Shown here piece by piece: positions 9,938 to 14,547 of a stretch of DNA of 33,244 bases. Under the pieces are notes generated by a model. The model was not told the DNA's origin. It saw nothing but the letters and a program-made list of their open reading frames with translations, and searched no databases. Position 1 is the stretch's first letter. Each line of letters starts with the position of its first letter. The stretch covers positions 1-33,244 of the forward strand of contig JAGXFW010000031.1 of NCBI GenBank assembly GCA_024637035.1, written 5' to 3'. The DNA is from Actinomycetes bacterium. GTDB taxonomy: Bacteria > Actinomycetota > Thermoleophilia > RBG-16-64-13. The translations under genes were made by a program, and so were the position numbers.

Positions 9938-11392
9938 CTACCAGTCGACGATCCTCCGCTGTCCCTTGAGTTCGCGCACGTGCGTGGCGTCCTGCACCAC
10001 TTCGAGGCACCCCTGATACGCACCCGCCTGGTCACGCATGGCGAAGTAGCGGATGTGCACGAACTTCGGCCCCAGCTCGATCCAGAATTCGGCCATGTCC
10101 TTGGTGCCGGCCTTGAACTCGGCGAGGATCTCTTCCACCTTGTCGAGGCTCTTGGGCGGATGGCAGTTACGCACCTCGCGCCCGATGGCCGCGGGGGAAC
10201 GGGGGAACACCCTCTCCCCTTCCGAATAGAAACGGACGCGGTCTTCGGCGTCGACATACGTGAGGTCGAAGGGAAGGTTGCGGAAGAGCAAGTCGATCTG
10301 CTCGGGGGTGAGTGCGCCCGTGCTGAGGGGCAACAGGAGTTCACCCTGTTCGGGGGCCCAGGTGTCGGCGGCCCAGCGGGCGTGGTCGCCGGCGGGGCCT
10401 TCGATCCAGGCATAGCCGATGTCGGCGTCGCCCGAGGCGATCTTGCGCCATTCGTCGGCCTCGATCACCTGCAGTGAGGTCGGGAAGAGGATCTTCTCTT
10501 CTTTGTAGACCATGTCGTCGACCATGCGCAGGGTCTCCGGCAGGGAGCGCAACAGAGTGGCGGCATCCTCGCGGCTGGCGTGGGCCCGATCCGCCTTGAT
10601 GCGCGTGCGGATGTCGTCGTCGAGCGCCCACATCACCTTCGTGGGGCCGGAGACGCCGTGTACCTCGAGCACCGGGAAGAGCTGGTTCTCCTTGCGCAGG
10701 TAGTGCACGTCGACCTGAGCGAGCCGCTCGAGTTCATGAGAGATGTCGGCCAAAGCGGCGTGCTTGGCCTCCTCGTCGGCGGGGGCGCCGAGAGCCTCGA
10801 GCGCGCACCGGAGAGCCGTGGTGATCTCGGTGGTCACCCGGTTCTCGCGCCGGTAGGAGGCGACAGGATGGTCGTCGGGCACAGCTGCCTCGGTGCCGTC
10901 GTCCAGCGCGTCCTTGAACACGCTCACGTGCACGTCGCAGAGACGCTGCACCTCTTCGACCGCCAAGCCTTCGGAGATCAGTGACTGCTCCATGAGCGCC
11001 ACCTCGGTGGCGTCCACGTCGCGCACCAGTTCGTCGAACCGAGCCTTCACATCATCGACGGCGGCGCCGTCGTGCAGATCCATGATGATGCCCTTCAACA
11101 GCACCTGTCGGCGCTCGCGCTCGTCGACATCGAGCCGAGGGGCCGCGCCGGACGTCTCCTCAGCCACGATCTCGTGCTGAGCCACGGCCTGCTTCACATC
11201 GTCGAGGAACTTCTCCACCGTCACGTTGCCCAAGCCCGCCGCTACCTCCAGCGACGCCACTCTGGCCATGGTGTTGTACAGCACCGGGTTCTTGAGCTTC
11301 TCGAACTCAGGCGTGTACTCGGCGAGCCAATCCTTCATGTACGGATACGCCTCACACAACTCGTGGATCTTCGTCTTGGCCGTGATCATCAT
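9938..11392 (-). CDS. DUF1858/DUF438/hemerythrin/PAS multidomain protein
   Basis: This 484-residue soluble protein has an N-terminal DUF1858-like segment (about 1-75, KIHELCEAYPYMKDWL), then a DUF438 region (about 90-165). A hemerythrin-like four-helix domain follows (about 170-325) with histidines and glutamates in DISHELERL, DVHYLRKENQLFP and MVYKEEKILFP. A C-terminal PAS-like domain (about 345-480) contains NCHPPKSLDKV and FVHIRYFAMRD. Proteins of this architecture occur in anaerobes, and hemerythrin domains bind a di-iron centre that can sense or hold O2 or NO. The start is the first of two ATGs; GGAGGAG lies in the end of the preceding amphi-Trp gene, six bases upstream, indicating one operon with it and the SQR-like gene. 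Function beyond redox or gas sensing is unknown. Confidence 0.88.
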   Translation of the reverse strand: MMITAKTKIHELCEAYPYMKDWLAEYTPEFEKLKNPVLYNTMARVASLEVAAGLGNVTVEKFLDDVKQAVAQHEIVAEETSGAAPRLDVDERERRQVLLKGIIMDLHDGAAVDDVKARFDELVRDVDATEVALMEQSLISEGLAVEEVQRLCDVHVSVFKDALDDGTEAAVPDDHPVASYRRENRVTTEITTALRCALEALGAPADEEAKHAALADISHELERLAQVDVHYLRKENQLFPVLEVHGVSGPTKVMWALDDDIRTRIKADRAHASREDAATLLRSLPETLRMVDDMVYKEEKILFPTSLQVIEADEWRKIASGDADIGYAWIEGPAGDHARWAADTWAPEQGELLLPLSTGALTPEQIDLLFRNLPFDLTYVDAEDRVRFYSEGERVFPRSPAAIGREVRNCHPPKSLDKVEEILAEFKAGTKDMAEFWIELGPKFVHIRYFAMRDQAGAYQGCLEVVQDATHVRELKGQRRIVDW

Positions 11393-11398
11393 GCTGGA

Positions 11399-11674
11399 CT
11401 ACTCCTCCGGCTCATCATCGGCCTGTGGGTCGTCGTCATCCTGGTCGATCGACCACTTGAGCTGGAACTCGAGTTCCTCTTCCGACTCACCGCGTTCGTG
11501 CTCGATGCTGATGACGGCGTTCGGAGGTATCGTGATGCGCTCACCGGCCACTCGGATGCGGAACTTCTCTCCCCGCTCTATGCTGTCGGCCAGGCGACGC
11601 AGCTTATCGACGAACTGGTCCGCGGGATAGCTCTTCTCGACGTCGCGCTGGGGCTTCTCCCCTTCTACAGACAC
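11399..11674 (-). CDS. amphi-Trp domain protein
   Basis: The 91-residue protein has the layout of the amphi-Trp domain: a helix YPADQFVDKLRRLADSIERG, a strand with RITIPPNA, and the closing EEELEFQLKWS with its characteristic Trp, followed by a very acidic tail. The GTG start at 11674 has GGAGG seven bases upstream. It lies between the SQR-like gene (75 bp) and the DUF438 gene (6 bp), all in one direction. The biochemical role of amphi-Trp proteins is not known to me; the operon suggests a link with sulfide or redox metabolism. Confidence 0.82.
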   Translation of the reverse strand: MSVEGEKPQRDVEKSYPADQFVDKLRRLADSIERGEKFRIRVAGERITIPPNAVISIEHERGESEEELEFQLKWSIDQDDDDPQADDEPEE

Positions 11675-11749: not shown

Positions 11750-12973
11750 CTACCAGCCGAAGTGCGACGAGGGCAAGTCGCGCTTGATCTTCTCCAGATA
11801 GTACCGCTCGAAGGCGCCTTTCATGTAGTGCGCCCACAGCCCCTTGCGGAGCACAGCCACGTTCCTAGGCGGGAGGAAGGGATCAGCCTTGATGTAGAAG
11901 GCGGTGTCGCCGGCGTCTGCGATGCACGTAGCGGGCAGCGTCAGACCATCGACAAGCTCGCCTTCGCCCAGGTCGGCGGCGATGTTCGTAGCCACGCGGA
12001 CGGCCATCTCTTCGGACATGTGCCCCGTCTTGGGCACACCCACCGGCACGGGGGTCGACACGGGCGGCGCCATGGCCACGGAGACTCCCGCTGCGTAGAT
12101 CTCGGGGAAGGCGGTGGAGCGGAGGTGTTGGTCGGTGGGGATGAAACCACGCGGGTTGCCGAGGCGCTCAGTGTCGCGCACCACCTGGGCGCCGAAGAAG
12201 GCCGGGATCAGCAGGGCGAGGTCGAACTCCATCTCGGAGCCGTCGCCGAGCGTCGCCTTGCCCGGCTCAACCTGCTTCAGCGCGGCGCTGACGGTCGAAC
12301 CGAGATGGCGCGAGCGGAACTCCGACTCCATCATGTTCTGGATGTCGCCGATGCCGTTCACCCCGAAATGGCCGATGAAGGGCTCCGGCGTGACCAGATG
12401 CAGGTCGAAGAGGTGGCGGCGCTTCTGCCGCCGAAGCTCCGTCTCGAGCATCATGATCAGCTCGTAGGCCGGGCCGATACAGCTGGCGCCGGGGTTGGCC
12501 CCGACGATCGCGCGACCCTTGGGCAGCGCGAGGAAGCGCTGGATGGCGGCTCGGGCGGCCACGGCTTGGTCGATCGTGAAGCACGTGTGCACGGTGCCGT
12601 CGGCGGGGTCTGAGCCCGGCACGTTCGACCAGTCGAGGTCGGCGCCTGTCGCCAGCACGAGGTTGTCGTAGGGGAGCGTGCGCCCGCCGGCGGTGGTGAC
12701 CGTATGTGCGGCCGTGTCGATAGACACGGCGCGGTCATGCACGAAGTTGATGCCTTTCGCGCCGAGCGGCCGGGCAAGGGGCACGGAGAGCCGCCCCGGG
12801 TCCCGCCAACCCATCATCACCCAGGGGATACTGGGCATGAAGATGAAGGCCTCGTCGGCCGAGATCACATCCACCGACACCCTGTCGCCAAGCTTCCGCT
12901 TGAGCTGGTACGCGGCGTTCACTCCAGCGAACGACCCACCCACCACGACCACCTTGTGTTGCGCGCTGCCCAT
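11750..12973 (-). CDS. Sulfide:quinone oxidoreductase-like flavoprotein
   Basis: SQR oxidises sulfide to polysulfide and passes electrons through FAD to the membrane quinone pool. This 407-residue protein starts with the FAD-binding VVVVGGSFAGVNAAYQL and has the second dinucleotide motif NLVLATGADLDW. It then shows GASCIGPAYELIMMLE and EPFIGHFGVNG, both characteristic of SQR. Three cysteines sit at 131, 165 and 350, close to the three catalytic cysteines of canonical SQRs. The C-terminus is amphipathic and basic (KGAFERYYLEKIKRDL), fitting monotopic membrane attachment. A run of five Gs lies four bases before the ATG. It heads a leftward operon and its promoter region overlaps the palindrome at 13060-13077, facing the DsrE/ArsR operon. 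A related NADH- or sulfur-linked flavoprotein is possible. Confidence 0.87.
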   Translation of the reverse strand: MGSAQHKVVVVGGSFAGVNAAYQLKRKLGDRVSVDVISADEAFIFMPSIPWVMMGWRDPGRLSVPLARPLGAKGINFVHDRAVSIDTAAHTVTTAGGRTLPYDNLVLATGADLDWSNVPGSDPADGTVHTCFTIDQAVAARAAIQRFLALPKGRAIVGANPGASCIGPAYELIMMLETELRRQKRRHLFDLHLVTPEPFIGHFGVNGIGDIQNMMESEFRSRHLGSTVSAALKQVEPGKATLGDGSEMEFDLALLIPAFFGAQVVRDTERLGNPRGFIPTDQHLRSTAFPEIYAAGVSVAMAPPVSTPVPVGVPKTGHMSEEMAVRVATNIAADLGEGELVDGLTLPATCIADAGDTAFYIKADPFLPPRNVAVLRKGLWAHYMKGAFERYYLEKIKRDLPSSHFGW

Positions 12974-13198: not shown

Positions 13199-13552
13199 AT
13201 GCAGACCATCCTCTTCGCCCTCAACGACGGCCCGTACGGCTCCGAGCGCCCGTATAACGCGCTGCGCCACGCTCTCGCCCTCTCCCGGCGCGACGACACT
13301 CAGGTGCGGGTGTTCCTGACGGCCGACGCCACCGCCTGCGCCGTGGCCGGGCAGACGCTCCCCGAGGGCTACTACTCCATCGAACGCTTACTCAAGGGGT
13401 TGATAGCCAAAGACGTGCCCGTCGCCATATGAGGCTCGTGTATGGACGCCCGTGGCTTGGCGTCCGTGGCGGTGGTCGAAGGAGCGGCGCGCGCGTCGAT
13501 GGAGTTGCTCGCGCAGTGGACGGTCGAGGCCGACAAGGTGCTGATCTACTGA
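13199..13552 (+). CDS. YchN/DsrE-family protein, probable selenoprotein (Sec78 at in-frame UGA 13430-13432)
   Basis: DsrE/YchN proteins are small cytoplasmic sulfur-relay or persulfide-handling proteins. Reading from the ATG at 13199 (GGAG upstream), the frame gives MQTILFALNDGPYGSERPYN, QTLPEGYYSIERLLKGL and VPVAI, then meets TGA. It continues in the same frame with GSCMDARGLASVAVVEGAA and ends WTVEADKVLIY before a second TGA. The whole is 117 residues, the same length as E. coli YchN as I recall it. The UGA is codon 78, where YchN has the first cysteine of its CxxC (LCKTC). An intact family C-terminus after the UGA, plus a hairpin at 13442-13467, argues for selenocysteine insertion; a TGC/TGT to TGA nonsense mutation is the alternative. 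Cys81 would be the partner of Sec78. Stopping at the UGA would leave 77 residues lacking the active site. ArsR follows 19 bp downstream. Confidence 0.78.
13433..13467 (+). promoter_or_regulatory. Candidate bacterial SECIS element after UGA codon 78
   Basis: Directly after the UGA, ATGGACGCC (13442-13450) pairs with GGCGTCCGT (13459-13467), nine pairs including one G-U, enclosing the loop CGTGGCTT. The loop starts 18 nt after the UGA and has a G as its second base. Bacterial SECIS models as I recall them ask for a stem-loop within about 16-37 nt of the UGA with a G among the first two loop bases, so the geometry fits. SelB binding is inferred. GC-rich coding DNA forms hairpins by chance, so this is support rather than proof. 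Confidence 0.6.
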
Positions 13553-13571: not shown

Positions 13572-13919
13572 ATGACCGAGAGCGATCGCATCGACGCGAC
13601 CATCCTGGAGCTGCACGCGCGGGTGTGCAAGACCATGGCCCATCCCGTGCGTCTCGCACTATTGAACGCCATGCGCGACGGCGAGCGGAGCGTCGGCGAG
13701 TTGGCCGAGGCGGCCGGCGTCGCCCAACCCATCGCATCCCAGCACCTCGCGACCCTCCGCGGCGAGGGTCTCGTGAACCACCAGCGACACGGCCAAGAGG
13801 TGCACTACAGCATCGCTCATCCGAAGATGATCGAAGCCTGCGACCTGCTACGCGAGGTGTTGTTCGACCGGCTGCGTGGCCAGAACGAGCTTACCCGACA
13901 CCTGGACACCACGCCCTAG
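13572..13919 (+). CDS. ArsR/SmtB-family transcriptional repressor
   Basis: The 115-residue protein is a typical ArsR winged helix: KTMAHPVRLALLNAM, then the helix-turn-helix SVGELAEAAGVAQPIASQHLATL and the wing LVNHQRHGQEVHYSI. It carries only two cysteines, Cys19 in the N-terminal helix and Cys90 in the C-terminal helix. The sulfide-responsive ArsR proteins SqrR and BigR use a comparable N-/C-terminal cysteine pair to form a polysulfide bridge. The spacing here (71) is slightly larger than I recall for SqrR, so redox sensing is plausible but not shown. It lies 19 bp after the DsrE gene and probably binds the palindrome at 13060-13077, repressing both divergent operons. Confidence 0.92.
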   Translation: MTESDRIDATILELHARVCKTMAHPVRLALLNAMRDGERSVGELAEAAGVAQPIASQHLATLRGEGLVNHQRHGQEVHYSIAHPKMIEACDLLREVLFDRLRGQNELTRHLDTTP

Positions 13920-13974: not shown

Positions 13975-14547
13975 ATGGCGATCGTCAAGAACTTCCTCGG
14001 CCGCGACATGGACGTGCCCGAGGACCGTCTGTACCACGCTGCGTCACACTACTGGTTCCGCGCGACCGTCGCCGGCGCCACCTCCGATGACGCAGGCGCC
14101 GATGCAGGCGACACGGGCGCCGACGCGGGCGCCGCGGCTGAGTACGACGTGGGCACGACGGAACCGGGCGTGGCCCTCACGGGCGGCCTCGTCGACCTCG
14201 AGGTACTGGCTGAAGCCGGTGCCGCCATCGTGGTGAGCGAGGAGGTGGCCTTCGCCACTACCAGGAAGGCCATCAAGTACTTCATGAGCCCTGTTGCCGG
14301 CATGGTGACCGCCGCCAACCCCTCCGCCACCGCCGAAGCCGCCAACGAGTCGCCCTACGGCACCTGGCTGTTCCGCATGACCTTGGCCGCCGATGCGGTG
14401 GCGACCCTCGTCGAGGCCGCGGCCTACGCGGCAAAGCTCGGCGCCTCCGAGCACGCGACCGACGCCGCGGCAGCGGCCGCCGTTGCCGCCAAGGCCGGCA
14501 AGGCGTCGCCCACGTGCCGGTCCATCTACAGCGGCATCAAGGAGTAG
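13975..14547 (+). CDS. GcvH-like lipoyl-domain protein with Ala/Asp-rich insertion
   Basis: The 190-residue protein matches the H-protein fold: VPEDRLYHAASHYWFRA corresponds to the usual N-terminal strand, GGLVDLEVL to the central part, and TTRKAIKYFMSPVAGMV to the lipoylation hairpin, with Lys98 as the likely lipoyl acceptor. ESPYGTWLFRM matches the end of the fold. Two features are unusual. Residues about 34-60 are a low-complexity Ala/Asp/Gly insertion, and the protein extends beyond the fold through an alanine-rich helix to CRSIYSGIKE with a lone Cys181. No glycine-cleavage genes are nearby. GcvH-like proteins are found with DsrE and other sulfur-transfer genes, where they are thought to carry sulfur intermediates, which fits this locus. 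AGGAG lies eight bases before the ATG. Confidence 0.8.
   Translation: MAIVKNFLGRDMDVPEDRLYHAASHYWFRATVAGATSDDAGADAGDTGADAGAAAEYDVGTTEPGVALTGGLVDLEVLAEAGAAIVVSEEVAFATTRKAIKYFMSPVAGMVTAANPSATAEAANESPYGTWLFRMTLAADAVATLVEAAAYAAKLGASEHATDAAAAAAVAAKAGKASPTCRSIYSGIKE

Follow-up and report, generated by a model that had tools for sequence, protein, structure and literature searches.

The 33,244-nucleotide stretch of DNA analyzed here (the window), from an uncultured actinobacterium, carries a YchN-type DsrE gene with an in-frame UGA at codon 78. This is judged to be a genuine selenoprotein gene in which the UGA is decoded as selenocysteine (Sec), with a probability of about 0.96. Sec is almost certainly inserted here, about as securely as sequence alone allows. 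SelB and Sec-tRNA would decode the codon, directed by a hairpin just downstream. The case is built on a combination of evidence, as folding energy and the synonymous-site signal are unremarkable singly. The features of the locus are listed in Table 1.

Table 1. Features of the YchN-type selenoprotein locus in the window.
Feature	Position	Strand	Details
Sulfide:quinone reductase (SQR), divergent neighbor	11750..12973	-	Match to 3sz0 (A. ferrooxidans-type SQR), E 4.4e-85; Cys131/165/350
YchN-type DsrE selenoprotein gene (predicted), read through UGA	13199..13552	+	117 residues; terminal stop TGA 13550-13552
In-frame UGA, predicted Sec78, first residue of UxxC	13430..13432	+	TGA in 9/9 distinct family sequences; Cys in other tree rows
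Partner cysteine of UxxC, codon 81	13439..13441	+	Invariant in 33 aligned proteins
Bacterial SECIS hairpin core	13444..13465	+	Stem GGACGCC/GGCGTCC, loop CGUGGCUU 13451-13458
ArsR/SmtB-type repressor	13572..13919	+	NF033788, 79.5 bits vs. cut-off 55; Cys19, Cys90
GcvH-like lipoyl-carrier protein, C-terminal SPTC motif	13975..14547	+	PF01597; matches E. coli H protein 3a8i

The reading frame runs from an ATG to the terminal TGA, and the TGA at codon 78 is its sole interruption. Once read through, the motif at the interruption is U78-G-S-C81. The Pfam DsrE/DsrF domain (PF02635) spans the UGA, covering residues 4-115 with 67.6 bits against a gathering score of 22.7 (E 1.4e-18). Among PDB sequences, only E. 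coli YchN (1jx7) matches; it aligns over residues 1-116 (E 1.2e-24) and has its CKTC opposite the UGSC of the window protein. The original prediction of a full-length YchN-like frame through the UGA, with the UGA at the position of the first cysteine in the E. coli CxxC, is thus borne out. Counting U as C, columns 78 and 81 are unchanged across the 33 aligned proteins. The AlphaFold model of the window protein is confident (pLDDT 93.7, pTM 0.88); in it, a strand ends at residue 78 and the next helix contains Cys81. Foldseek places YchN at the top for this model (TM 0.92); next come DsrEFH, other DsrE-type proteins, and TusBCD. A second, Cys-type YchN copy was not found in the window's genome.

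In the host family, the gene is present in 8 of 18 genomes at 10 loci. These give nine distinct sequences because those of L047 and L048 are identical, and all nine have TGA at codon 78. In a tree of 72 rows, every homologue from outside the host family (63 of 63) has Cys at this codon. The UGA sequences are one clade, produced by one change on the tree (support 100/99), and a single Cys-to-Sec replacement is therefore the simplest history. In the sampled genomes of the phylum and class, homologues with an internal UGA were found only inside the host family. Viral contigs yielded no relative, and plasmid records contained homologues only at <60% identity, chiefly E. coli ychN and DsrE family proteins.

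Some genomes have more than one copy. A sister species (G001) has two UGA-type YchN genes, L018 and L019, of which one is a 93% orthologue and the other, a relative at 70%, has SQR and ArsR neighbors of its own. G404 has two UGA-type genes as well. A separate Cys-type homologue, L107 (G736:C180:4305-4625), contains an in-frame TAG, which may mark a pseudogene or a fault in the assembly.

Under translation table 11, the frame terminates at 13432, and the UGA could then be a real stop that arose by nonsense mutation or sequencing error and left a pseudogene or a 77-residue fragment. This is very improbable. The same TGA is observed in 8 genomes from separate assemblies, and a sequencing error would hardly recur in independently assembled genomes of other species. 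Relatives always have Cys opposite the UGA. The frame past the UGA is conserved under purifying selection, with a pN/pS among the family sequences of 0.239 for codons 79-117 versus 0.243 for codons 1-77. Equal constraint on both sides of the UGA is a strong argument against a dead downstream frame. Pseudogene and sequencing error were rejected on the grounds of TGA in 9/9 sequences and a pN/pS of 0.24. Two checks proposed with the original prediction, the residue at codon 78 in homologues and the state of the downstream frame in relatives, thus came out in favor of read-through.

A hairpin of the SECIS type follows the UGA. Positions 13444-13450 pair with 13459-13465 to form a conserved 7-bp core, and the stem in the window reaches 9 bp if A13442-U13467 and U13443-G13466 are counted. 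The loop is 8 nt long, has a G at its second position, and lies 18 nt from the UGA. The 9-bp hairpin described at the outset is real, with the 7-bp core conserved and two more pairs in the window. The bSECIS model has a stem of 4-16 bp, a loop of 3-9 nt with G in its first two positions and, in most cases, G or U next, a spacing of 16-37 nt, and a minimum free energy (MFE) of at most -7.5 kcal/mol (PMC13188914). With 8 nt, 7 bp, 18 nt, and a window MFE of -19.2 to -21.9 kcal/mol, the hairpin lies within all of these published constraints, in agreement with the SECIS geometry first proposed.

The hairpin core is kept at 6-7 bp in all nine family sequences, and 96.8% of cells pair across them. 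Shifting the register of the nine-sequence alignment abolishes pairing. Two sequences share a compensatory C-G to U-A change in which both substitutions are synonymous (GAC to GAT and GCG to GCA); this covariation involves one base pair only. Cys homologues are without the hairpin, with a mean folding z of 0.03 versus -1.22 and a mean MFE of -10.5 versus -16.3 in the UGA set. The single-sequence folding energy of the window hairpin is modest (z -1.57), and in L048 the minimum-energy fold departs from the conserved hairpin. The weight of the hairpin therefore comes from conservation and covariation, not from folding energy alone. The synonymous-site signal over the hairpin is weak, with a fraction of identical codons of 0.67 in codons 82-88 versus 0.55 in codons 1-77, and other 7-codon windows match the synonymous identity of codons 82-88.

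The Sec machinery named as a further check (selA, selB, tRNA-Sec, and selD) was found in full in the window's genome. tRNA-Sec scores 72.6 bits against a cut-off of 47, selB is present, and selA (549 bits) is located ~80 bp before it. The selD gene (402 bits; G000:C7:14250-15176, L088) carries a single in-frame TGA, which makes SelD a probable selenoprotein as well. In the host family, tRNA-Sec is present in 14 of 18 genomes, covering every carrier of the UGA gene but one. The exception is G401, where tRNA-Sec was not found in an assembly that is 78% complete.

Frame conservation by itself leaves the inserted residue unidentified, and the UGA might be read as Trp, or as Cys via a suppressor tRNA. 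Such decoding is hardly credible in a host with complete Sec machinery and with a SECIS-type hairpin following the UGA. The position is that of a redox Cys, and further genes of the window terminate at UGA, on which ground code reassignment was also rejected. Decoding as Sec, initially called probable, is supported by the TGA/Cys pairing, the hairpin, the Sec machinery, and the constrained downstream frame. The gene is a very strongly supported addition to the selenoproteins, of a type that routine annotation cuts short at the UGA, and its origin is traced to a single switch from Cys to Sec inside one actinobacterial family.

The order SQR, UGA-type YchN, and ArsR recurs in the host family, often followed by the GcvH-like gene. 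SQR adjoins the UGA-type gene in L050-L054, the ArsR-type gene follows it in L050-L056, and the GcvH-like gene is present at L050, L052, L055, and L056. No SQR was found within 6 kb at the family loci L055 and L056. An SQR homologue is also located within ~1.3 kb of Cys-type YchN in Acidobacteria (L057, L061, L062) and Ignavibacteria (L066). The sulfide link thus extends beyond the Sec form, which it may predate, and the earlier expectation that a selenoprotein in an SQR/ArsR locus would be unusual did not hold.

Several further observations concern the neighboring genes. Against the model for the sulfane-sulfur sensor BigR, the ArsR-type protein scores 57.5 bits (cut-off 155); it possesses Cys19 and Cys90, and the sensor pair of sHdrR is Cys50/Cys116. 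The putative lipoyl lysine of the GcvH-like protein, placed by eye, is within TRKAIKYFMSPVAG. This protein ends in SPTC(K/R)S(I/V)Y(S/G)GIKE, conserved in the window, L052, L055, and L056; the motif holds the sole Cys of the window protein and is unusual for an H protein. In L055:6318-7229 and L056:6374-7255, the ArsR-type and GcvH-like genes are in one open frame with no intervening stop, which may reflect a fusion, or the second may start internally. A PLP enzyme of Cys/Met metabolism near the UGA gene (L051:2493-3695, L052:7315-8505) is a further sulfur link. Downstream of SQR, the minus strand encodes a DUF1858-DUF438-hemerythrin-PAS protein (9938-11392) and a small amphi-Trp protein (11399-11674). 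The sister species keeps both genes, and the more remote loci yielded neither.

The crystal structure of YchN is known, and to our knowledge the protein has no established function. The favored reading makes the window protein a carrier or transferase of sulfane sulfur, in which Sec78 would bind the sulfur and Cys81 would assist it, a proposal given about even odds. It draws on the fold shared by YchN, DsrE, and TusD, on the nearby SQR, and on the precedent of DsrE-Cys78, which in Allochromatium DsrEFH binds sulfane sulfur and hands it to DsrC (PMC3397948). The divergently encoded SQR would oxidize sulfide to give the sulfane sulfur carried on Sec78, Cys81 would act as the resolving partner, and the adjacent ArsR-type repressor would control the locus. 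It is reasonable to suppose that the Sec78 selenol handles persulfide, and the selenoprotein may be connected in function with SQR, the ArsR-type repressor, and the lipoyl protein. SQR adjacency would give YchN a concrete, testable role in the handling of sulfide-derived sulfur.

Thiol redox or metal/metalloid handling, rather than sulfane-sulfur transfer, is a possible if somewhat doubtful main role for the selenoprotein. UxxC is a general redox motif and the next gene is of the ArsR/SmtB type, a family with metal sensors; against this, the fold is shared with the persulfide carriers DsrE and TusD, and SQR neighbors the gene in several phyla. An elaboration of the sulfane-sulfur proposal is an unlikely Sec-based relay, in which sulfane sulfur made by SQR would be held on Sec78 and passed to the GcvH-like protein while the ArsR-type repressor senses the load. 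If true, this would be a Sec version of a DsrE-LbpA type relay, for which we know of no precedent. The DsrE3C-sHdr-LbpA system is a parallel for relay onto a lipoyl protein (PMC12423496).

Compared with E. coli YchN (1jx7), the window protein has the same length, the same fold (TM 0.92), a full-length alignment, and CxxC at the same place, but has Sec instead of Cys and ~40% identity. DsrE of DsrEFH, with its sulfur-binding Cys78, and TusD of TusBCD also share the fold; unlike the window protein, they belong to heterohexamers with partner subunits, and identity is 15-21%. Assignment to the TusD/DsrE equivalog (TIGR03012, NCBIfam) was rejected, as the window protein scores 21.9 bits against a cut-off of 89.25. 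The type III SQR selenoprotein subtype (NF049943) is another Sec protein in sulfide oxidation, and the neighboring SQR matches this model weakly. At 100.2 bits against a cut-off of 525, it was rejected as a member; it has no in-frame UGA (HxxU), resembles the A. ferrooxidans type, and is not a selenoprotein SQR.

DsrE-like UxxC selenoproteins are already established. They were described from the Sargasso Sea in 2005 (PMC1088965) and from Desulfovibrio vulgaris in 2006 (PMC1794560), GOS added 'DsrE 1' and 'DsrE 2' in 2008 (PMC2398784), and a 2026 review includes them (PMC13188914; reference WP_014524487.1). The Sargasso Sea and GOS reports agree with the earlier statement that such proteins had come from metagenomes. 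In the literature searched, YchN and selenoprotein were not found together, and nothing relevant was found for Thermoleophilia and selenoprotein. The window protein shares PF02635, UxxC, and a bacterial SECIS with the known members, and differs from them in being actinobacterial and SQR-linked and perhaps in being YchN-type. It is a new and convincing member of this established class, with SQR as its neighbor.
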